NCBI RefSeq assembly: GCF_000165795.1
Contig: NZ_CM001022.1
Location: 558,001-622,000, forward strand
Direction of reading: 5' to 3'
DNA: 64,000 bases
Source of the DNA: Aminomonas paucivorans DSM 12260
GTDB taxonomy: Bacteria > Synergistota > Synergistia > Synergistales > Synergistaceae
Positions 40,149 to 52,536 of the stretch are shown in pieces. The notes under the pieces were generated by a model. That model searched no databases and was not told where the DNA came from. It worked only from the letters and a program-made list of their open reading frames with translations. How positions within the stretch are numbered: position 1 is the first letter of the stretch; each line of letters opens with the position of its first letter. The position numbers and the translations under genes are program-made.

Positions 40149-40172
40149 CCAGCCCCAAACGCCGGGGCCTGG
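40149..40172 (-). terminator. Terminator of the mini-array transcript
   Basis: On the minus strand CCAGGCCCC (40172-40164) pairs with GGGGCTGG (40156-40149) with one bulged G, followed by TGTTTTCT. Confidence 0.6.
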
Positions 40173-40180
40173 CTTGAAAC

Positions 40181-40269
40181 CGGTTCATCCCCACTTGCGT
40201 GGGGAAAGAGGGCCCCTTCGCATAGAGGAAGGATGAACCTCGGTTCATCCCCACCTGGGTGGGGAACCC
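40181..40269 (-). CRISPR. Two-repeat degenerate mini-array upstream of cas3
   Basis: Two 29-nt repeats (40269-40241 and 40209-40181, read on the minus strand) flank a 31-nt spacer (40240-40210). They run opposite to the main array and differ from its consensus at a few places. In the first repeat the stem reads CCCCACC-CA-GGTGGGG against the consensus CCCCACG-CA-CGTGGGG, a compensatory pair change. In the second it reads CCCCAC-GCAA-GTGGGG. Both end in the intact handle ATGAACCG. Confidence 0.8.
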
Positions 40270-40313: not shown

Positions 40314-40322
40314 ATTGTAGCA
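40314..40322 (-). promoter_or_regulatory. Extended -10 promoter of the mini-array
   Basis: On the minus strand TGC-TACAAT (40322-40314) fits the extended -10 form TGn-TATAAT. No good -35 is seen, as is common for that class. Confidence 0.5.
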
Positions 40323-40349
40323 TGCCGGATATTTTAGAATGAACCTCTT
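40316..40349 (-). promoter_or_regulatory. Predicted partial protospacer with AAG PAM at the cas3 promoter
   Basis: On the minus strand, AAG (40349-40347) is followed by AGGTTCAT (40346-40339), identical to spacer positions 1-8 of the mini-array. Positions 10 and 11 also match; beyond that the match is at chance. The site covers the mini-array promoter and ends 10 bp before the cas3 -35. Confidence 0.55.
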
Positions 40350-40359
40350 GGTTTAATCT

Positions 40360-40388
40360 TTGACAAATCAAAAGAGTCGCATTATGAT
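40360..40388 (+). promoter_or_regulatory. Promoter of the cas operon
   Basis: Consensus -35 TTGACA (40360-40365) and TATGAT (40383-40388) with an exact 17-bp spacer. Transcription would start near 40395, only about 12 nt before the cas3 ATG. Confidence 0.75.
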
Positions 40389-40406: not shown

Positions 40407-43178
40407 ATGGGTGTAAGCAATAGCTGCGGGGGGGCGACACCGGTCTCGCAAAACCTCTTGTGGCTGCTCTGGGGTAAATCCAACAGGGAATCCGGCGAGA
40501 TCCATCCCCTGGTTCGGCACCTTCTGGAAGCTGCTGCGGTTTGTCGCATGCTGCTGGAGCGTCGGCCCTGTCTCCGAAGGCAGTTCGCAAAACTCCTGGG
40601 GGTGGCGGAGGATCAGGTGTTGGAGTGGGTTCCCTTTCTCTGTGCCCAGCACGACCTGGGCAAGGCGGGACCCTTTCAGTTTTGCCCCCATGGTCCCTGG
40701 GGAAAGTGCGAACAGGTTCCTCCGGCGTGGCAATCCTTCTTTCCTCGGTCAAACGCGGGTCACCCCTCTCATGGAAGCTACACCACGCGGTACCTCCAGG
40801 TGCTGCTGCCTGAACTGCTGAAGAAAGGCGTCATCGGAGCTTTGGATCCCTCCGTCGTGAAACGCCTTGCCTCTGCGCTGGGGGGGCATCACGGCGCGTT
40901 TGTCTGCAACAGCATGATCAGCTCCCTGGAGAAGGAGATTCGGGCAGATGCCGGGTCTTCGTATCCATGGCTTGGAGTAGCGCGTCGGTTGCTGGAGATC
41001 CCCCTGTTGTGGCTGAGTCCCTCCGAACCGCTGGATCCCGTCAAGGGAAACGCCTGGCCTGTCCTTCTGGCGGGGGTGGTCAGCCTGTCGGACTGGATCG
41101 CGTCCAACGAAGCGTTTTTCCCCTATCGCTCCCTTCCCGACTCCCCGGATCTCCCGAATGATCTGTGGGAAACGACCTTGAAGCATGCCGGACTCATCCT
41201 GGACGAAGCGGGGTTTCGGGAGGTCGTTTCCCCTGCTCCTGCCACGTTCTCCGAGTTGTTCGCTTTTGATCCTCGGCCACTGCAACATCGAATGGACGAA
41301 CTGTTGCCCATGGAAAGGATGGTGGACCTGCCGCGGTTTCTCATCCTCGAAGCCCCCATGGGGGAAGGGAAGACCGAGGCGGCTCTTTTCGCTCTGGATC
41401 GTTGGCAGATATCCCTGGGGAGAAACGGAGTCTACGTGGCCATGCCGACCACTGCCACCAGCAACCAGATGTACTGTCGAGTGGAGCGTTTTCAGGAGAA
41501 CCGCCGTCCCGGGGGGCGAGAGAATCTGCACCTTCTCCATGGCCAGGCGTTGCTCTCCGACGACTACGATCGCCTGAAAGCTCGGTCGGTGGCTCCAGAC
41601 GAGGGAGAAACCCCTTCGGTCCAGGCGGACGAGTGGTTTTGCGCCCCCAAACGGGGGCTTCTCGCCTCAGGGGCCGTGGGCACCGTGGATCAGGCGCTCC
41701 TAGGGGTCCTTCAGACCCGGTACCAGTACCTGCGGCTTTTCGGGCTGGCGGGGAAGACGGTGATCTTCGACGAAGTCCACGGTTACGACGCCTACATGCT
41801 CACGGAGTACGAGAACCTGTTGCGATGGCTTGCCGCCCTGAACTGCACCGTGGTGGTCCTTTCTGCCACCCTCCCCGCTGCGACCCGGCGCAGGATGGTC
41901 CAGGCCTTCTCCGAGGGGATGGAAGCCCCTGTGTCTCTGGATGTGCTGGACGGGGTGTCCTATCCGCGGGTGACCACCCTAAGGGACAGCGGAGACCTTT
42001 CCTGCGACACCTTCCCTTCTGCGAGATCCTTCTCCTGTCGTATTCGTTGGGAGCACGATAGACGGTCTGTGGCCCAATCCCTGGCAGAGGAGATGAAGGA
42101 GGAAGGAGGAGCCGTGGCCTGGATCTGCAACACCGTGCGCAGTGCCCAGGAGACCTATGACCTCCTGAAGGAGGTTTTTCGGGACAGCAAAATCGATGTG
42201 ATGCTCTTTCATGCTCGGTATCAGGCGGGGGAGCGTCGCAGACGGGAAAAGGCGGTTCTGGAGCGCTTCGGACCAGGCAGGAAGGGCGGAGACGGGGTGG
42301 TTCTGGTGGCGACCCAAGTGGTGGAGCAGAGCTTGGATCTGGATTTCGACCACATGATCACCGAGCTGGCCCCCGTGGACCTGATCCTCCAACGATTGGG
42401 GCGGGAGCATCGTCATGGGGGGTGCGCGAGGCCCAAAGCCTTTGTGGAACCCTGGCTGCGCATCCTCGTCCCCGAAGGATTGCCGGATGATTTCGGGGCG
42501 AGCGGCAAGGTCTACTTGCCCTTCGTTCTCCTTCGTACCTGGCTTGTCCTGAAGGACCGGGCATCTCTTGCCCTGCCTGGTCAGATGGATGACCTCATGG
42601 AAGCCGTCTATGGCGAAGCGGGGGATTTCCCCGAAGAGTATCGGTCCCTGCTTGCGAGATGGCAGGAGGAACACTCGAAAGGAGAGGACGGGTCGCGCTT
42701 CAAGGCCGCGAGCATCCTCATTCCCGATCCAGGAGGGAGGGATGTGACCCAGGCCTTCTCTCAGGGGGTTCAGGAGGACGAGGGGGTTTGTCCAAGGGCC
42801 CGGACCCGACTTTCCAAAGAAGACCGAATCCCTGTCGTTTTGCTGCACCGCAAAGGGGAGGTGTCCTATCAGGACCGAAGCGGTACCGCCCCGGTCTCCG
42901 AGATTCCTCCTCGGGACCCAGAAGAGCGCAGGAGATGGGAGAAGCGGATGGTGGAACTCTCGGTGGATCTTCCAACATGGTTTCTGCGGGATGTGGACCG
43001 GATTCCGGAACCGCGGTGGAAAGGGTGTGCGCTCCTTCGGCATCACGGGTTGCTTCTCTTGGAGGACGGCAAGGTCGTCCTGGGTGAGGGGAGGTGTCTG
43101 GAGGTGGATGAAGAAAAAGGCGTGATCCGTCATTTCGGCTCTGAGAAAGGAGGTGCATCCCGTGGAAGGGACGTTTGA
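40407..43178 (+). CDS. cas3: CRISPR-associated helicase/nuclease Cas3
   Basis: The 923-residue protein is the DNA-degrading effector of type I systems. The N-terminal HD nuclease shows His33, His82-Asp83 (QHDLGK) and GGHHG near residue 160. The SF2 helicase has Walker A APMGEGKT (Lys322), DEVH box (455-458), SATLP, TQVVEQSLDLDFD and QRLGREHRHG. ATG 40407 follows a GGAGGTGGGGG stretch; the frame-open GTG at 40392 would lie before the predicted transcript start. It overlaps casA by 17 bp. Confidence 0.95.
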   Translation: MGVSNSCGGATPVSQNLLWLLWGKSNRESGEIHPLVRHLLEAAAVCRMLLERRPCLRRQFAKLLGVAEDQVLEWVPFLCAQHDLGKAGPFQFCPHGPWGKCEQVPPAWQSFFPRSNAGHPSHGSYTTRYLQVLLPELLKKGVIGALDPSVVKRLASALGGHHGAFVCNSMISSLEKEIRADAGSSYPWLGVARRLLEIPLLWLSPSEPLDPVKGNAWPVLLAGVVSLSDWIASNEAFFPYRSLPDSPDLPNDLWETTLKHAGLILDEAGFREVVSPAPATFSELFAFDPRPLQHRMDELLPMERMVDLPRFLILEAPMGEGKTEAALFALDRWQISLGRNGVYVAMPTTATSNQMYCRVERFQENRRPGGRENLHLLHGQALLSDDYDRLKARSVAPDEGETPSVQADEWFCAPKRGLLASGAVGTVDQALLGVLQTRYQYLRLFGLAGKTVIFDEVHGYDAYMLTEYENLLRWLAALNCTVVVLSATLPAATRRRMVQAFSEGMEAPVSLDVLDGVSYPRVTTLRDSGDLSCDTFPSARSFSCRIRWEHDRRSVAQSLAEEMKEEGGAVAWICNTVRSAQETYDLLKEVFRDSKIDVMLFHARYQAGERRRREKAVLERFGPGRKGGDGVVLVATQVVEQSLDLDFDHMITELAPVDLILQRLGREHRHGGCARPKAFVEPWLRILVPEGLPDDFGASGKVYLPFVLLRTWLVLKDRASLALPGQMDDLMEAVYGEAGDFPEEYRSLLARWQEEHSKGEDGSRFKAASILIPDPGGRDVTQAFSQGVQEDEGVCPRARTRLSKEDRIPVVLLHRKGEVSYQDRSGTAPVSEIPPRDPEERRRWEKRMVELSVDLPTWFLRDVDRIPEPRWKGCALLRHHGLLLLEDGKVVLGEGRCLEVDEEKGVIRHFGSEKGGASRGRDV

Positions 43179-44736
43179 TCTGACGGAGCGTCCGTGGATC
43201 CTCTGCAGGCTTCGGGATGGCTCGACGGTGTCCTTGGGGCTCCTGGATCTGTTCCTTCGGGCGCCTGAGATCGAGGGAATCGTCGGTGGCGATCCCCTGG
43301 AAGAAGGGGCACTCTATCGGTTTCTCGTTGTAGTGGCCCACCGAATCCTCCAGGGCCCCGTTTCCAGCGCCCAATGGGAAGACCTGTGGGACCGAGGGGC
43401 GTTCGATCCCCCCGGAGTGAGGGAATACTTCCGTGTCTGGAAAGACCGTTTCGACCTCTTCCATCGGGAGTTTCCCTTTTTTCAGCACCCGGGATGTGGG
43501 GATGTGGAGGCGAATTCTGCGACGGTGATGGCCCATTCTCTGGCTTCGGGAAACAACGCCGTTCTGTTCGATCACCACGAGGATGGGGTGTCTGTCCGCT
43601 GGTCCCCCGCCACGGCGGCCCGAAAGCTCCTGGTCGCCCAGGGTTATTCCCTGGGTGGGCTGGGGCCTTCGTATAAAGGGTCCAGACAGCAGTTCTACCA
43701 GGCCCCCCTCGTCCCGGGGGCTCTGGTGATTCTTCGGGGAGACAACCTGTTCCAGACGGTGATGCTGAACCTCCTGGTTCTGGGGAAGGATCACCCCTTG
43801 CCTGGTTCTGGTTCCGCTTCCGATCTCCCCCTGTGGGAACAGGATCCGAGGCCTTTTCGGCCCGGGGAGGAAAGGGTTCCCAAGGGATACCTGGATTACA
43901 TGACCTGGCAGGCCCGGCTGGTGCAGATCCTTCCCGAGGAGGACGGAACCGTGGCAAGGGTGCGATGGATTCAGGGGGTACGGACTCCCGACATCGGTAC
44001 GGGGGAGCCCATGATGGTCTTTCGCAGACAGGAAGCCAAGGCAGGGAAGGCAAAACCGGGTTCTCCGGAATGGTTTCCCCTTCGTTTCTCGGAGGGAAGG
44101 GCCTGCTGGAGAGACAGCGCAGCCCTGGCGGCCCCGGTGAAGGACCAAACAGATCGCTACCGCCCCCCGGAGACCCTTCTGGCTTTGGTGAACGACCACA
44201 GGGACCACCCGGGGGTCCCCCAGGTGGTGCGGGTGAATCTCTACGGTCTTCTGGCGGATAAGGCCAAACCCCTGCTCTGGCGCAAGGAGAGCCTGCCCAT
44301 CCCCGTGGCCTATTTGGCGGAGGACCGCTGGTACCTGGCCCTGGAACAGGCCCTCCTCTTGGCCGAAGAGGTGGCTTCCCGGTCCTTGGGTTGGGGGCTT
44401 CGCCTTGCGGCGGACGACCTGGAGGACCCCCTACGCAAGGAGGCGAAGGAAGCCTTTGCCCAGTGGGCCCGCAACACGGTCCAAACCTCCTACTGGGCTT
44501 CCTTGGAGGTCCCCTTCTACCGTCTTTTCCTGGCAGGGAATCCTGCCACGCTTCCCCAGGAGGATCTGGAATCCCGATGGCGACGCCAGTTGGGTCGAAG
44601 CGCCCGATCGGCCTTCCACCAGGTGGGGGGCGCGTTGGAGGGCAAATCGGAGGGACTGCGGGCCTGGGCACGAGGAAAACAGGGATTGGATGGTAGCCTG
44701 TACCGACTGCTCGGCGACGATGCGAAGGAGGGATGA
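43162..44736 (+). CDS. casA: Cascade large subunit Cas8e/Cse1
   Basis: The 524-residue protein recognises the PAM and recruits Cas3 in type I-E Cascade. The opening FDLTERPWILCRLRDGS is the typical Cse1 start, and FPFFQHPG and a four-helix C-terminus follow. GTG 43162 is preferred over GTG 43153 because AGGAGG ends 8 nt before it. Base use is less GC-biased than in the flanking chromosome, as in the rest of the cas genes. Confidence 0.92.
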   Translation: MEGTFDLTERPWILCRLRDGSTVSLGLLDLFLRAPEIEGIVGGDPLEEGALYRFLVVVAHRILQGPVSSAQWEDLWDRGAFDPPGVREYFRVWKDRFDLFHREFPFFQHPGCGDVEANSATVMAHSLASGNNAVLFDHHEDGVSVRWSPATAARKLLVAQGYSLGGLGPSYKGSRQQFYQAPLVPGALVILRGDNLFQTVMLNLLVLGKDHPLPGSGSASDLPLWEQDPRPFRPGEERVPKGYLDYMTWQARLVQILPEEDGTVARVRWIQGVRTPDIGTGEPMMVFRRQEAKAGKAKPGSPEWFPLRFSEGRACWRDSAALAAPVKDQTDRYRPPETLLALVNDHRDHPGVPQVVRVNLYGLLADKAKPLLWRKESLPIPVAYLAEDRWYLALEQALLLAEEVASRSLGWGLRLAADDLEDPLRKEAKEAFAQWARNTVQTSYWASLEVPFYRLFLAGNPATLPQEDLESRWRRQLGRSARSAFHQVGGALEGKSEGLRAWARGKQGLDGSLYRLLGDDAKEG

Positions 44737-44740
44737 AGGC

Positions 44741-45289
44741 TTGGAGAGCTCGGGACGGAATGCCTCGGAAAAAAAAGAGGGGAAAGCCGGTCGTTTGGTC
44801 GAACGGCTCCTCTCCTGGAAGGAGGATCTTGGCGCTCTTGCGGCTCTGCGCCGCGGCTGGGGGAAAGAGCCTGGAACGGCACCGGAGATGTTTCCCTATG
44901 TGGCGTCTTTCGACGATTCTCGGTGGGAAGGCGAAGTGGTCTACATCGTGGCGGGGCTTTTCGGCATGTGGCCCCAGCACGACCCTTCCTCCGGGTCCTT
45001 CGGCGCGTCGATGCGTCGCTTGGTGGAGCCGGAGGAGGACGTGCAGGGGACAAGCGTGGAAAAGCGATTCCTCTCGTTGTTGGATGCGGATGCGGGAGAG
45101 CTGTATCAGGCCCTTCCCCGCATGGTGGGCCTGCTGAAGGCAAAGGAGGTTCCCCTGAACTACCTTCTGCTGACCCAGCATCTTTTCCACTGGAAAGATG
45201 CTGGAATCCACAATGTCCGTCGTCGTTGGGCGGTGGACTTTTGGCGTCGTCCATTCACTCGATCCGTGGAAACGACAAAGGAGGATTGA
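44741..45289 (+). CDS. casB: Cascade small subunit Cse2
   Basis: The 182-residue helical protein has the Cse2 pattern of a Trp/Arg-rich RRGWGKEPGTAPEMFPYV near residue 45 and DAGELYQALPRMVGLLK. The start is a TTG at 44741: GGAGGG lies 8 nt upstream, and no ATG or GTG fits the frame nearby. The last residues, RSVETTKED, recur at the end of the next short frame because of a tandem duplication. Confidence 0.88.
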   Translation: MESSGRNASEKKEGKAGRLVERLLSWKEDLGALAALRRGWGKEPGTAPEMFPYVASFDDSRWEGEVVYIVAGLFGMWPQHDPSSGSFGASMRRLVEPEEDVQGTSVEKRFLSLLDADAGELYQALPRMVGLLKAKEVPLNYLLLTQHLFHWKDAGIHNVRRRWAVDFWRRPFTRSVETTKED

Positions 45290-45292
45290 GCC

Positions 45293-45487
45293 ATGTCCGA
45301 GTTTGAGGTGCGGTGTCTGACCCAGAGCGTTGCCCCATCCTGCCTGAACCGAGACGGTACCGGTTTGCCCAAGGACTGCCCGTCCTGCGGTGTCTGCAGG
45401 ACGGGTGTTTCCGGCCAATCCTTGAAGCGTGCCCTCCGGGAACGTTTGGGTATCCATCGATCCTTGGAAACGACAAAGGAGGACTGA
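45293..45487 (+). pseudogene. Duplicated, diverged N-terminal fragment of cas7e (still open)
   Basis: The 64-codon frame begins like Cas7e (TQSVAPSCLNRD ... PKDC ... SGQSLKRALRE) and ends RSLETTKED like CasB. It is the product of a 198-bp tandem duplication that joined the cas7e 5' end to the casB 3' end. About 34 of the first 54 residues equal those of intact Cas7e next door. The Cas7 motif RRARVSSQSFKRA has become CRTGVSGQSLKRA. It keeps its own AAAGGAGG site and ATG, so a peptide may be made. Either a harmless remnant or a small Cas7-derived product. Confidence 0.8.
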
Positions 45488-45490
45488 GCA

Positions 45491-46684
45491 ATGTCCAAGT
45501 TCGTGGAACTGCATCTGATCCAGAGCGTTGCCCCATCCTGCCTGAATCGAGACGACACCGGTTCGCCCAAGGACTGCCAGTTCGGCGGTGTCCGTCGGGC
45601 GCGCGTTTCCAGTCAGTCCTTCAAACGGGCCATCCGGGAAAGCTTTCGCACCCATGAGAGATTGGCCGCTTCCATGGGAGTGCGCACCAAGCGCCTCGTG
45701 GAGGGAACGGCTCAAAGGCTGGCTCTTCGGGGACGTGATGAGGAGATAGGGCGTAAGGTTGCCCGTAACCTGCTGAACGTGGTTTTCGACAAGGACATGT
45801 TCGACGGGAAAACAACGGACAAGACGAAATACCTCCTGTTCCTCTCCCCCTCGGAAGTTCAGGCCTTCGGCGAGATCGCCGAAGGTTTCTGGGATGAGCT
45901 TTCGGCCATGGAAACCCAGAAGGCCGAAACTCCTTCGGGAGAGGAACCGGAGGAGGCTGCCCCGAAGGCGTCCCGTAAAGGCGCCAAAACGAAGAAGACC
46001 GAGGGAAGCAAGGAATTGCTTGCGGCGGTGAAGGGGCTGTTCGGCAAGACCCCCGGTGTCGACCTGGCCCTTTTCGGTCGCATGATCGCCGATCGTCCGG
46101 ACGACAACATCGATGGGGTTTGCCAGGTGGCCCATGCCATCTCCACCCACCAAACTGCCAAGGAGGTGGATTTCTTCACCGCCCTGGATGACCTCAAGCC
46201 CGACGATACCTCCGGTTCCGACATGATGGGGGTGGTGGAGTTCAACAGTGCCTGCCTCTACCGCTACCTCACTCTGGACTGGGATTCCCTGGTGAGCCTT
46301 CTGGGGAACGAGGCATTCGCCAGGACCGCCCTGGAGGGTTTTCTGGAAGCCGCCGTACGGGCCCTTCCCTCGGGGAGGCAGAACTCCTTTGCCGCCCACA
46401 ACCTTCCGAGCCTGGCTTTTGCCTGTGTCCACGACGGCCAACGATTCTCTCTAGTCAACGCATTCGAGAAACCCGTGAAGCCCAGGGATGGTCTGGTGGA
46501 GGAATCCGTCCGGCGCATGGACGAATACCTGGGCCTTCTGGAAAAGGAGTACGGTCGCTACCTCGTTGGCACCGGGGCCGTGAAGCTGCACTGCGGCCCC
46601 GCCGCAGGGGGTGGACTTGTCCACCTGGGCGAGCGGGCCGACAACCTGGAAGCCTGGATCCAGGCCATTCTCCGGGCCCTTTAG
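45491..46684 (+). CDS. cas7e: Cascade backbone subunit Cas7e/Cse4
   Basis: The 397-residue RAMP protein forms the crRNA-binding backbone (six copies in known Cascade). It shows LHLIQSVAPSCLNRDDTGSPKDC and VRRARVSSQSFKRAIRESF at the start, and FNSACLYRYLTLDWDSL and LPSGRQNSFAAHNLP later. A Glu/Lys/Ala-rich insert lies near residues 137-175. ATG 45491 follows AAAGGAGG; the same leader stands before the truncated copy. Confidence 0.94.
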   Translation: MSKFVELHLIQSVAPSCLNRDDTGSPKDCQFGGVRRARVSSQSFKRAIRESFRTHERLAASMGVRTKRLVEGTAQRLALRGRDEEIGRKVARNLLNVVFDKDMFDGKTTDKTKYLLFLSPSEVQAFGEIAEGFWDELSAMETQKAETPSGEEPEEAAPKASRKGAKTKKTEGSKELLAAVKGLFGKTPGVDLALFGRMIADRPDDNIDGVCQVAHAISTHQTAKEVDFFTALDDLKPDDTSGSDMMGVVEFNSACLYRYLTLDWDSLVSLLGNEAFARTALEGFLEAAVRALPSGRQNSFAAHNLPSLAFACVHDGQRFSLVNAFEKPVKPRDGLVEESVRRMDEYLGLLEKEYGRYLVGTGAVKLHCGPAAGGGLVHLGERADNLEAWIQAILRAL

Positions 46685-46694
46685 GGGTATCGTC

Positions 46695-47405
46695 GTGCCC
46701 AGCCTGTTGCTTCGCCTGGGTGCCCCCATGCAGTCCTGGGGCGTGCACAGTGCCTTCGGCATCCGGGACACCGGTAGGGAGCCTTCCAAGAGCGGCGTGG
46801 TAGGGTTGCTGGCTGCGGCTCTCGGAAGGGACCGTCATGACCCTCTGGACGACCTGGCTTCCCTCGTTCTGGGGGTCAGGGTCGACCGAGAGGGCAGCCT
46901 GATGCGGGATTTTCAGACTGCTGGGGGAGGGCAGTTCTGCGGCTCCCCCTACGGCGTGCGAAAGGCCAACGGCAAGGCGGGCGACACGGTCGTCTCCCCT
47001 CGCTGGTATCTTGCCGATGCCCTCTTTCTCGTGGCCCTCGGGGGGGAGGATCCGGCTTTCCTGAAGAGCCTGGAGGAGGCTCTCCTTCGCCCCCGTTACC
47101 CTCTCTACCTGGGGCGACGTTCCTACCCACCCACCTTTCCTTTGGTGCTGGGTGTGGTCTCGGAAGCGGCGGAAGAGGCGTTGCGCTCCTATCCTGTCCT
47201 CCCGGGATCTGATGGCGGGGGAAGGATGCTTCGCCTTGTCCTGGAATCCTCCCCCGAGGAGGGGGGGACTCCCCGCATGGATGTGCCTCTTTCGTTCGAT
47301 CCCCTGGAAAGGCGCTACGGCGTGCGCTACGTCCGCACCGAACTGGTGGAGGTGGTCCCCTCGGACAGGCGAAGGGAGGAGATGCCATGTACCTCTCCAG
47401 GTTGA
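46695..47405 (+). CDS. cas5e: Cascade subunit Cas5e
   Basis: The 236-residue RAMP protein caps the 5' handle of the crRNA. It shows LLLRLGAPMQSWG at the start, TGREPSKSGVVGLLAAALG, and RRSYPPTFPL. GTG 46695 is the first start after the cas7e stop that leaves the family N-terminus intact. It overlaps cas6e by 19 bp. Confidence 0.92.
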   Translation: MPSLLLRLGAPMQSWGVHSAFGIRDTGREPSKSGVVGLLAAALGRDRHDPLDDLASLVLGVRVDREGSLMRDFQTAGGGQFCGSPYGVRKANGKAGDTVVSPRWYLADALFLVALGGEDPAFLKSLEEALLRPRYPLYLGRRSYPPTFPLVLGVVSEAAEEALRSYPVLPGSDGGGRMLRLVLESSPEEGGTPRMDVPLSFDPLERRYGVRYVRTELVEVVPSDRRREEMPCTSPG

Positions 47406-48097
47406 TCCTTGATCCTCGAAGTCGCCAGGTTCGCCGAGACACGGGAGACTGCCAGCAGATGCACCGAACACTTTGTCGGGCTTTCCCGGGCACGGAAGGC
47501 AAGGACCCGCGGTTTCGCAGTCGAGCGGGTCTGCTGTGGCGCCTGGATCGGCGGGAGGACGGAACCCTTTGCGTGATCGCTCAAAGCGAAGCGGAGCCGA
47601 ATTGGGGGTTTCTCCAGGAGTGTCCCGGCTACTTGCTCCCCTCCTTCCCCTGTCCTGCCGTTCGCTCCCTGGATCCTCTGTGGAGTCGCCTCGTCGCCGG
47701 CACGGTGTGGCAATTTCTGTTGCGCGCCAACCCCACCCGAAAGGTGGCGACAAAATCCTCCCCCGACGGCTCCAAGTCCAACGGCCGTCGGCTTCCCTTG
47801 GATACGGAGGAGGACGAGCTTCGCTGGTTCCTTCGCAAAGCGGCGGAGGGGGGATTCTACCTGGCCCCCGAGGGGAGGCAGGGGGAGGAATCACGCCGCC
47901 TTCGAGTCTGTCGGGAAACCCCCCTGAAGGGGTCGCGAGGGGCACAGGGCGATTCCCACGGGATGACCTTCCATGCCGTTCGTTTTGAAGGGTATCTGCA
48001 GGTTACCGATGGGGACCGGTTTCGAGAAATCCTGAAGAACGGTCTGGGCAGCGCCAAAGCCTATGGTTTCGGCCTGCTCTCCCTGGCCCCCGTATAG
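47387..48097 (+). CDS. cas6e: crRNA-processing endoribonuclease Cas6e
   Basis: The 236-residue double-ferredoxin-fold RNase cuts each repeat 8 nt before the spacer. It opens MYLSRLILDP and has the general-acid His26 in MHRTL at the position known in the family. The glycine-rich loop NGLGSAKAYGFGLLSL closes the protein. It should also process the mini-array, whose repeats keep the same hairpin and handle. Confidence 0.94.
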   Translation: MYLSRLILDPRSRQVRRDTGDCQQMHRTLCRAFPGTEGKDPRFRSRAGLLWRLDRREDGTLCVIAQSEAEPNWGFLQECPGYLLPSFPCPAVRSLDPLWSRLVAGTVWQFLLRANPTRKVATKSSPDGSKSNGRRLPLDTEEDELRWFLRKAAEGGFYLAPEGRQGEESRRLRVCRETPLKGSRGAQGDSHGMTFHAVRFEGYLQVTDGDRFREILKNGLGSAKAYGFGLLSLAPV

Positions 48098-48099
48098 CC

Positions 48100-49050
48100 A
48101 TGGCACTGGGAGACCTGCACATCCTCCCCAAATTCCGGGATGGCCTATCCTATCTGTATGTGGAACACTGTCGCGTGGAGCAGGAGGGCAAGGCGGTGGC
48201 TCTTTGGGATGCCCGGGGAGTCACCCCTGTGCCCTGTGCCTCCTTGGCCCTGCTCCTCCTCGGGCCGGGGACGCAGATATCCCATGCCGCTGTGAAGGCT
48301 TTGGCGGATTGTGGATGCCTCGCGGCATGGTGCGGCGAAGAGGGGGTCCGTTTCTACGCTTCCGGCACGGGAGAGACCCGAAGCTCCCGCAACCTCCAGA
48401 AACAGGTCCTGCTGTGGGCTCGGGAGGAAACCCGCATGAAAGTGGTGCGGACCATGTATGCTATGCGCTTCGGTGAAGTGGTGCCCGACACCCTCTCTCT
48501 CCAGCAGCTTCGAGGCCGGGAGGGCGCTCGCATGCGGGACGCCTACCAGCGGATTGCGCAGGAGACCGGCGTTCCTTGGAGCGGGAGGCAGTATGACCGC
48601 AATTCCTGGAACAGCGCGGACCCCGTGAACCGGGTTCTTTCTGCGGCGAACTCCTGCCTTTACGGGGTGTGCCATGCCGCCATCGTCAGCCTGGGGTACA
48701 GTCCCGCTCTGGGGTTTATCCACACGGGAAAGCAGTTGTCCCTGGTGTACGATCTTGCGGATCTCTACAAAGTGGAGACCACCATTCCCGTCTCCTTCGA
48801 GACCGTTCGGGAGGGCACGACTCCCCTGGAACGAACCGCCAGGATTCGCCTGAGGGATCGTTTCCGGGAGACCCGTCTGCTGGAGCGGATCGTCTCGGAC
48901 CTGGATGCCCTGTTCGGCTCCGTGGACTTGGCACCGCAAGATGTGGGGCTGATGGATCCGGACGAAGACATGGCAGCCCCTGGAGGATTGTGGAATGGGG
49001 ATGGCCAGGTCCTTGGAGGGGTCTGTTACGAGGCGTCGGACGGGCCATGA
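48100..49050 (+). CDS. cas1: CRISPR integrase Cas1 (type I-E)
   Basis: The 316-residue integrase has its metal ligands at the same numbers as in E. coli Cas1: Glu141 (RGREGARM), His208 (FIHTG), Asp218 and Asp221 (VYDLADLYK). The start follows the cas6e stop by 2 bp; the stop overlaps cas2. Confidence 0.95.
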   Translation: MALGDLHILPKFRDGLSYLYVEHCRVEQEGKAVALWDARGVTPVPCASLALLLLGPGTQISHAAVKALADCGCLAAWCGEEGVRFYASGTGETRSSRNLQKQVLLWAREETRMKVVRTMYAMRFGEVVPDTLSLQQLRGREGARMRDAYQRIAQETGVPWSGRQYDRNSWNSADPVNRVLSAANSCLYGVCHAAIVSLGYSPALGFIHTGKQLSLVYDLADLYKVETTIPVSFETVREGTTPLERTARIRLRDRFRETRLLERIVSDLDALFGSVDLAPQDVGLMDPDEDMAAPGGLWNGDGQVLGGVCYEASDGP

Positions 49051-49334
49051 TGGTTCTGGTCCTGGAGAAAGTTCCGCCCTCCTTGAGGGGAGAACTCTGT
49101 CGATGGCTCATTGAACCCAAAGCAGGGGTTTTCGTGGGTCAGGTCTCTGCCTTGGTTCGGGAGAAACTTTGGCGACAGATTTGCCAGGGCGCGAGGGAAG
49201 GGAGCTGCCTTCTGCTCTATTCCTCCAATACAGAGCAGGGTTTTCGGTTTGACGTCTGGGGAAGCCGGGAACGCCTGGTGGCAGATTGGGAAGGGTTGAC
49301 CTTGGTAACTCGAAGTAGTCATAAGGGTGATTGA
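49047..49334 (+). CDS. cas2: Cas2 (type I-E), spacer-acquisition partner
   Basis: The 95-residue protein opens MMVLVLEKVPPSLRGELCRW and has KAGVFVGQVSALVREKLW, the Cas2e signature. ATG 49047 overlaps the cas1 stop; ATG 49050 is equally possible. The gene ends only 15 bp before the first repeat, so its 3' end must double as array leader. Confidence 0.92.
   Translation: MMVLVLEKVPPSLRGELCRWLIEPKAGVFVGQVSALVREKLWRQICQGAREGSCLLLYSSNTEQGFRFDVWGSRERLVADWEGLTLVTRSSHKGD
49296..49325 (+). promoter_or_regulatory. Possible array promoter inside cas2
   Basis: TTGACC (49296-49301) and CATAAG (49320-49325) are spaced by 18 bp in the last codons of cas2. Transcription would start near 49333, about 17 nt before the first repeat. 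Confidence 0.45.
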
Positions 49335-49962
49335 TCGACATCTCGAAGACATTTCCCCACGCACGTGGGGATGAACCGGTGGTAGCCGACACCGCCACGG
49401 TGATGCACCGCATTTCCCCACGCACGTGGGGATGAACCGTATGGTTCTTATGACAAAGGAATGGTGGCGGTCCATTTCCCCACGCACGTGGGGATGAACC
49501 GCGGGGCGCTGGCCACGGGAACGACACCCTATGACATTTCCCCACGCACGTGGGGATGAACCGCCAACGACACCCTTCGGTGGCTCGGGCGGAGCCATTT
49601 CCCCACGCACGTGGGGATGAACCGAAATCGCAAACCCTGTCAAGAGATCCACTTGACATTTCCCCACGCACGTGGGGATGAACCGTCTCCCCGATTGATG
49701 AAATGATGATATCTAACCATTTCCCCACGCACGTGGGGATGAACCGTGTCATATCGACAGGAGTGTGATAATCCCCCACATTTCCCCACGCACGTGGGGA
49801 TGAACCGGCTTGGGCGCTGGGAAAACTGGACGCCCTGGACCATTTCCCCACGCACGTGGGGATGAACCGTAATTAGCTATTTGTGAAGTTTTCGCCCAAA
49901 ACATTTCCCCACGCACGTGGGGATGAACCGGCGGCGGGGGACGCTCCCCCGGGCCCGCCGCC

Positions 49963-50820
49963 CATTTCCCCACGCACGTGGGGATGAACCGGAGAGGAAC
50001 AACGATGACTTACGGATACCCCAACATTTCCCCACGCACGTGGGGATGAACCGGATCTTTTCCCAAAGGTCTGCACCAAGAACGACATTTCCCCACGCAC
50101 GTGGGGATGAACCGGGAAATGCAAAAGTTACGCATGCAAAGGTGATCATTTCCCCACGCACGTGGGGATGAACCGTGGCTGACACCTTTAGCATGGGCGT
50201 CGAAGACCATTTCCCCACGCACGTGGGGATGAACCGGAAGATATGAAGATGCAGATGGCTAAGAAGAACATTTCCCCACGCACGTGGGGATGAACCGTCG
50301 GAAGAATGGATGCCTGGGCAGACGCGATGCATTTCCCCACGCACGTGGGGATGAACCGCCGTTCACGCTCTTCGAGCGGCAGAAGCGTGACCATTTCCCC
50401 ACGCACGTGGGGATGAACCGGAGAGGAACAACGATGACTTACGGATACCCCAACATTTCCCCACGCACGTGGGGATGAACCGGATCTTTTCCCAAAGGTC
50501 TGCACCAAGAACGACATTTCCCCACGCACGTGGGGATGAACCGGGAAATGCAAAAGTTACGCATGCAAAGGTGATCATTTCCCCACGCACGTGGGGATGA
50601 ACCGTGGCTGACACCTTTAGCATGGGCGTCGAAGACCATTTCCCCACGCACGTGGGGATGAACCGGAAGATATGAAGATGCAGATGGCTAAGAAGAACAT
50701 TTCCCCACGCACGTGGGGATGAACCGTCGGAAGAATGGATGCCTGGGCAGACGCGATGCATTTCCCCACGCACGTGGGGATGAACCGCCGTTCACGCTCT
50801 TCGAGCGGCAGAAGCGTGAC
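49963..50820 (+). repeat. Tandem 429-bp duplication of seven repeat-spacer units in the array
   Basis: The seven spacers following repeats at 49963-50330 recur in the same order after repeats at 50392-50759, without a base change that I could find. Confidence 0.95.
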
Positions 50821-51247
50821 CATTTCCCCACGCACGTGGGGATGAACCGCCGTCGGGGCCTGGGCCGAGGAGGAGCTTGACCATTTCCCCACGCACGTGG
50901 GGATGAACCGGATCGTTTCCACCGGCTACCCCTCCCCCGCAACATTTCCCCACGCACGTGGGGATGAACCGAGATGCACGTCAAGGGGTCCCGTGGCGAC
51001 GGGCATTTCCCCACGCACGTGGGGATGAACCGAGGGCCGCAAAAATCCTCCTGGCAGACATCCCCATTTCCCCACGCACGTGGGGATGAACCGGGACTGG
51101 GGCTTGGAGTTTCGGACCTGGAGAACATTTCCCCACGCACGTGGGGATGAACCGCTGGCGGCGCTCCCGGAGAAGGGCAACGAGGCCATTTCCCCACGCA
51201 CGTGGGGATGAACCGCAGGGTTAGCACTTTGTCTGTCTGATTCATCC

Positions 51248-51369
51248 CATTTCCCCACGCACGTGGGGATGAACCGAGAAGCGTTTGATAAGACAGTGGA
51301 GAGCGCACCATTTCCCCACGCACGTGGGGATGAACCGAGAAGCGTTTGATAAGACAGTGGAGAGCGCAC
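51248..51369 (+). repeat. Two adjacent identical spacers
   Basis: Spacers at 51277-51308 and 51338-51369 are the same 32 nt (begin AGAAGCGTTTG). Confidence 0.95.
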
Positions 51370-52536
51370 CATTTCCCCACGCACGTGGGGATGAACCGCG
51401 CCAGGACCTTCCCCCCCGCCCACAGCGCGGCATTTCCCCACGCACGTGGGGATGAACCGTGAGCGAGCTGAAGCCGTGCCCGTTTTGTGGCCATTTCCCT
51501 ACGCACGTGGGGATGAACCGCCTCCAGGTACCGGTCCCCCACGCTGACGCCCCATTTCCCCACGCACGTGGGGATGAACCGGGGGCCCGGGGCGACTGGA
51601 AGGACCTGGACTCCATTTCCCCACGCACGTGGGGATGAACCGGTGACGGTCCCGACGAACGTGCAGGGGCTTCGCATTTCCCCACGCACGTGGGGATGAA
51701 CCGCGTCGCGGAAACGGAGTGGTGGATATGATCTTCATTTCCCCACGCACGTGGGGATGAACCGGTGCCGGGTGCTGGGCTACGCGGCTTCCAGTGCATT
51801 TCCCCACGCACGTGGGGATGAACCGCGCTTGGACGCCACCAGCCGAACGACCAGGGCCATTTCCCCACGCACGTGGGGATGAACCGTATTCCACCGGATG
51901 CCGAACCCTGCGGAACATGCCATTTCCCCACGCACGTGGGGATGAACCGAAACCGCGCGGGTGGGACGATTCCAGGAAGGCCATTTCCCCACGCACGTGG
52001 GGATGAACCGGCGTTCGCGGCAGCCTGGGGGGCAACGTCCCCATTTCCCCACGCACGTGGGGATGAACCGGTCAAGGTGGGCGGGGCGGACGTGACGGGG
52101 TACATTTCCCCACGCACGTGGGGATGAATCGGCGTGCAAGACCGACGAGGAGCGAATCGAGGTCATTTCCCCACGCACGTGGGGATGAACCGGGGTGCCC
52201 CCCGTCCCGGGCGGTGATCTATGGCATTTCCCCACGCACGTGGGGATGAACCGGAATGAGCCAGATCGCCCAGGAGACCGGACTCCATTTTTCCACGCAC
52301 GTGGGGATGAACCGAACGACTCCGTGACGGATCGGGTGGACGAGCCCATTTCTCCGCACACGTGGGGATGAACCGCTGTCCTGGCAGGCCCGGTTCCCGT
52401 GGAGGCTCATTTCCCCACGCACGTGGGGATGAACCGTAGTAGGGCCAGGGTTGTTCGTCGTAAAGTCCCATTTTCCCACGCACGGGGGATGAACCAATTT
52501 AATAGTCTTTGTATGAAGGGTTTGCCTGGCTGCGCT

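Follow-up and report, generated by a model that had tools for sequence, protein, structure and literature searches.

A candidate CreR-type regulatory mini-CRISPR divergent from cas3 in the type I-E system of Aminomonas paucivorans DSM 12260

Some 140 bp upstream of cas3 in A. paucivorans, and divergent from it, lies a mini-array of two minus-strand repeat copies, 60 bp apart, around a single spacer. CreR (cas-regulating RNA) mini-CRISPRs of type I-B, I-E and V-A systems are covered in three reviews (PMC13131331, PMC12948488, PMC12737573), and, as in these, the two repeat-like units flank a spacer close to the cas operon. The original prediction for this DNA had argued for function from a base change in one of the two repeats. 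In the current study the repeats, the spacer and the surrounding promoters were compared with the main array and with type I-E loci of other genomes.

The locus and its mini-array

The plus strand of the window (the whole stretch of 64,000 nucleotides that was analysed) carries a type I-E system with cas3, cas8e, cas7e, cas5e, cas6e, cas1e and cas2e, all recognised by family models, and with an array (Table 1). The ORF at 44733-45137, which occupies the cas11 (cse2) position between cas8e and cas7e, was matched by no family. The start of cas7 has undergone a 198-bp tandem duplication (81% alike, 45259-45654), so that a fragment matching positions 9-57 of the Cas7 profile lies directly upstream of the intact gene. 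The main array contains an exact internal duplication (49962-50261 equals 50391-50690), 42 of its 50 spacer intervals are unique, and its trailing repeats (52286-52497) are decayed, the stem of the last one carrying a deletion. Only 15 bp separate the stop codon of cas2 from the first repeat (49334-49350), which means that any leader would need to extend into cas2.

Table 1. Features of the type I-E locus and its mini-array, in positions of the window
Feature	Position	Strand	Basis and remarks
Terminator-like hairpin, then T-rich stretch	40149..40169	-	Consensus scan, 8 pairs; 11 bp past psiR2; putative function
psiR2, second mini-array repeat	40181..40209	-	TCTTTCCCCACGCAAGTGGGGATGAACCG; 29-nt match to main repeat, 3 substitutions, all outside stem and handle; loop GCAA; handle intact
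Mini-array spacer, 31 nt	40210..40240	-	AGGTTCATCCTTCCTCTATGCGAAGGGGCCC; sequence between both repeats
Mini-array spacer next to 5' handle ATGAACCG in the predicted RNA		-	AGGTTCATCC
psiR1, mini-array repeat transcribed first	40241..40269	-	GGGTTCCCCACCCAGGTGGGGATGAACCG; 29-nt match to main repeat, 5 substitutions, all outside stem and handle; loop CCAG; 3' handle ATGAACCG intact
Extended -10 element, likely mini-array promoter	40314..40322	-	TGCTACAAT; read from the sequence, absent from consensus scan output
Putative weak -35-like TTCATT of mini-array promoter	40343-40338	-
Predicted target	40316..40349	-	PAM AAG 40349-40347, protospacer 40346-40316; seed positions 1-8, 10 and 11 match spacer
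cas3 promoter, TTGACA-17-TATGAT	40360..40388	+	Agrees with consensus at 11 of 12 positions; 0.1 such promoters expected in shuffled sequence
cas3	40407..43178	+	NCBIfam cas3 core and HD domain models
cas3 start	ATG 40407	+	Chosen start, preceded by GGAGGTGGGGGA; ORF listed from GTG 40392
cas8e (cse1)	43153..44736	+	TIGR02547
cas7e	45491..46684	+	TIGR01869
cas5e	46611..47405	+	TIGR01868
cas6e	47387..48097	+	TIGR01907; putative processing of mini-array RNA
cas1e	48100..49050	+	TIGR03638
cas2e	49047..49334	+	TIGR01873
Main CRISPR array	49350..52497	+	51 repeats and a decayed last one; repeat CATTTCCCCACGCACGTGGGGATGAACCG

A search of Rfam gave no match to the mini-array near gathering score, and no DNA similar to it was found in the plasmids and phages searched. 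Within 40210-40269, there is complementarity between the repeat handle GGATGAACC and the first 9 nt of the spacer after its leading A (GGTTCATCC). The seed of the spacer thus resembles an inverted repeat handle, and the predicted fold of the full transcript accordingly pairs the spacer with psiR2.

Repeat hairpins at this locus and in other genomes

The original prediction read the letters correctly. The stretches 40241-40269 and 40181-40209 are minus-strand copies of the main I-E repeat, and the two letter changes described in the former (G12>C and C15>G) are real and still complementary to each other. The prediction was mistaken in placing them in the stem as a compensatory change. By folding, the main repeat, psiR1 and psiR2 share an identical 7-bp stem, TCCCCAC/GTGGGGA (outer T-A pair included), and positions 12 and 15 sit in the tetraloop, which is GCAC in the main repeat. 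The cores read CCCCAC-GCAC-GTGGGG in the main repeat, CCCCAC-CCAG-GTGGGG in the copy at 40241 and CCCCAC-GCAA-GTGGGG in that at 40181; the outer letters of the loop had been read as a seventh pair on the inner side of the stem, in which case just 2 nt would remain for the loop. At the same two places psiR2 has G and A, which do not pair. Since the stem letters are identical in all three repeats, there is no covariation and nothing has been compensated at this locus, and a compensatory stem change here is hardly credible, even though the changed letters complement each other.

Constraint on these hairpins is supported by where the substitutions fell, rather than by covariation. The two mini-repeats together carry 8 substitutions, all of them in the 5' flank (first three nt) or the loop, so that the stem and the 3' handle are unchanged. 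The chance of such a placement is about 7e-6 if substitutions are random over the 29 nt, and about 0.006 when the first 3 nt are left out. An orthologous mini-array was sought among the I-E loci of the window's phylum and none was found.

Mini-arrays were sought upstream of cas3 in approximately 100 I-E loci (the window's phylum, with samples from the phyla of loci L034, L035 and L036), using repeat similarity and a hairpin of at least 5 of 6 pairs, and making no use of targets. Six loci have a cas3-proximal mini-array, namely that of the window and L140, L164, L169, L178 and L186; no further one was found among the I-E loci of the window's own phylum, and none among those surveyed from the phylum of genome G190. 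In L148, L151 and L159 a single repeat-like unit, with no partner repeat, lies upstream of cas3; these units were set aside. A solitary unit of this kind also lies upstream of cas3 in L054 (2487-2515, minus strand), with 5 mismatches to the unusual repeat of that locus, CTGAGCTCCACGCAAGTGGAGATGTCCCC.

In the 12 mini-array repeats of the six loci, pairing is seen in 97.6% of stem cells, and both-sided changes occur in 5 of 7 pairs; the covariation score was reached by no shuffle and slid registers came nowhere near it, but the main repeats themselves vary from genome to genome and account for part of these figures, and the search also favoured hairpins. The mini-repeats were also compared with the main repeat of their own genome in four cases (the window, L140, L164 and L186). 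This comparison gave three true double changes that keep pairing (C-G to T-A in L140, A-T to G-C in L164 and C-G to T-A in L186), together with two single changes, after which a pair is retained or newly formed; no substitution unpairs any of the inner six pairs. In L140, L164 and L186, psiR1 has largely retained its handle and that of psiR2 has decayed; the window's psiR2 still has its handle. The pattern in these three loci agrees with what is described for creA genes (PMC8501985).

The comparative data support the view that mini-array hairpins, as a class, are under selection. To this extent the earlier claim of selected RNA hairpins holds for the class, on evidence other than the base change cited for it. 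Mini-arrays with unpaired repeats beside intact cas genes, which had been named as the finding that would count against it, were not encountered, but a search demanding at least 5 of 6 pairs would have missed mini-arrays of that kind.

The spacer and its predicted target

On the minus strand, the region upstream of cas3 reads AAG-AGGTTCATTCTAAAATATCCGGCATGCTACA, starting with the classical PAM of type I-E systems; the mini-spacer begins AGGTTCATCCTTCC and matches at 10 of its first 12 nt. As in CreR, therefore, the spacer has limited complementarity to the cas promoter region, next to a PAM. The protospacer covers most of the extended -10 element TGCTACAAT, the predicted promoter of the mini-array itself. 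Between the target and the -35 box of the cas3 promoter there are 10 bp, and the predicted transcription start of cas3 follows about 50 bp downstream of the target.

Taken alone, the match of this spacer is modest and only suggestive, as a comparable one would be expected by chance in about 1% of cases: among 400 segments drawn at random from the locus, 4 match as well as the mini-spacer does, and in a larger trial 30 of 3000 had an 8-nt seed and a canonical PAM. None of the main-array spacers of this genome matches the region with a canonical PAM. Two other AAG-seed sites occur in the genome, both within genes, and were set aside as targets.

Across the six loci, a full-seed target with an AAG PAM upstream of cas3 was found for 4 of 6 mini-spacers, as against 5 of 2303 main-array spacers (80 loci), or for 3 of 6 if L178, whose target falls just outside the stretch used for the control spacers, is not counted. 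In L169, AAG-TAGCGCGCTCT is found upstream of the mini-array and ATG-TAGCGCGCT near cas3. In L178, AAG-GAGGTATTGGTACAAAG adjoins promoter-like TTGACT/TATACT, and in L186 AAG-AATTATGGTTGTAAACAATC directly follows TTGACA-17-TATACT, so that the sites in both of these loci abut or overlap promoter-like sequences. The L178 site, beside its promoter-like sequence, is about 450 bp upstream of cas3. Random segments matched as well in 0 of 400 (L169), 0 of 400 (L178) and 1 of 400 (L186) cases. Several of the target mismatches fall at positions 6, 12 or 18, the bases of which are flipped out by Cascade. The mini-arrays of L140 and L164 have no convincing AAG-PAM full-seed target upstream of cas3.

A regulatory reading, its alternatives and known systems

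The build of the mini-array, the match of its spacer in seed and PAM, and the like arrangement in other I-E loci make a CreR-type regulatory mini-CRISPR of the type I-E system the probable identity of the element. A short minus-strand RNA would comprise psiR1, the spacer and psiR2 and end at the terminator-like hairpin. Cas6e would cut it at the two hairpins, and the guide would be taken into Cascade, which, having only seed-level complementarity, may bind the AAG-flanked site at 40349-40316 without cleavage. Since the site spans the mini-array promoter and ends just short of the cas3 -35 box, bound Cascade would limit the supply of its own guide and probably repress the cas operon too; given the distance to the predicted cas3 start, repression of cas3 would be less direct than that of the mini-array. 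Repression would be released once Cascade is occupied by ordinary crRNAs or by anti-CRISPR proteins (PMC12737573, PMC13131331). It is also conceivable, though we hold it to be doubtful, that the single Cascade site between divergent promoters acts as a self-limiting autorepressor that shuts off both mini-array and cas operon, with the complementarity of seed and handle serving as a brake on processing or loading. That same likeness of the seed to an inverted repeat handle counts against the CreR reading, because the target match could stem from repeat-like sequence. Further points against it are the predicted pairing of the spacer with psiR2, the modest improbability of this one match, the distance of the site from the cas3 transcription start and the mini-arrays of L140 and L164, for which no comparable target was found.

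The element might instead be an ordinary minimal array with one mobile-element spacer, or the decaying rest of a longer array, in either case without regulation. Its repeats are indeed still near the main repeat, the psiR2 handle is kept, unlike in the other mini-arrays found, and the promoter match of this one spacer is only a 1% event. That substitutions spare stem and handle argues against such an origin, as does the enrichment of promoter targets at the level of the class; viral contigs also contain no exact 22-nt match to the spacer, although this is true of most spacers. On balance we think a minimal array or relic unlikely. Far less probable is that the mini-array serves as CreA antitoxin in a CreTA pair and that its guide represses a small RNA toxin and not cas genes. 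Its build of two repeats is shared with creA genes (PMC8501985), but only 18 bp lie between the -10 box of the plus-strand promoter and the ATG of cas3, too few for a toxin gene to fit there, and the minus-strand promoter runs into the mini-array itself.

If the CreR reading is true, promoter-targeting type I-E mini-CRISPRs extend to a lineage whose examined relatives have none, and comparative support, by sequence alone, is added for mini-arrays being retained for regulation. This support rests on compensatory stem changes in other genomes, on a psiR2 handle that is free to decay, and on AAG-flanked sites upstream of cas3 that are matched far more often by mini-spacers than by ordinary spacers.

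Among known systems, the creA genes of CreTA (PMC8501985) resemble the element in having two divergent repeats around a spacer partly complementary to a nearby promoter, but here the target-to-cas3 interval is without a toxin gene. Autorepression of Cas9 by a natural guide, mentioned in PMC13131331, is similar in that an effector lowers its own expression; the effector is of type II, and a mini-array of this kind is not part of that system. The closest likeness is to CreR: the mini-CRISPR adjoins the cas operon, complementarity between its guide and the cas promoter region is limited, it is not coupled to a toxin gene and the effector comes from the same system. The window locus differs from CreR in having one site between divergent promoters that spans the predicted promoter of the mini-array itself, an intact psiR2 handle, and a seed complementary to the repeat handle. 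It would appear to be a new CreR member.
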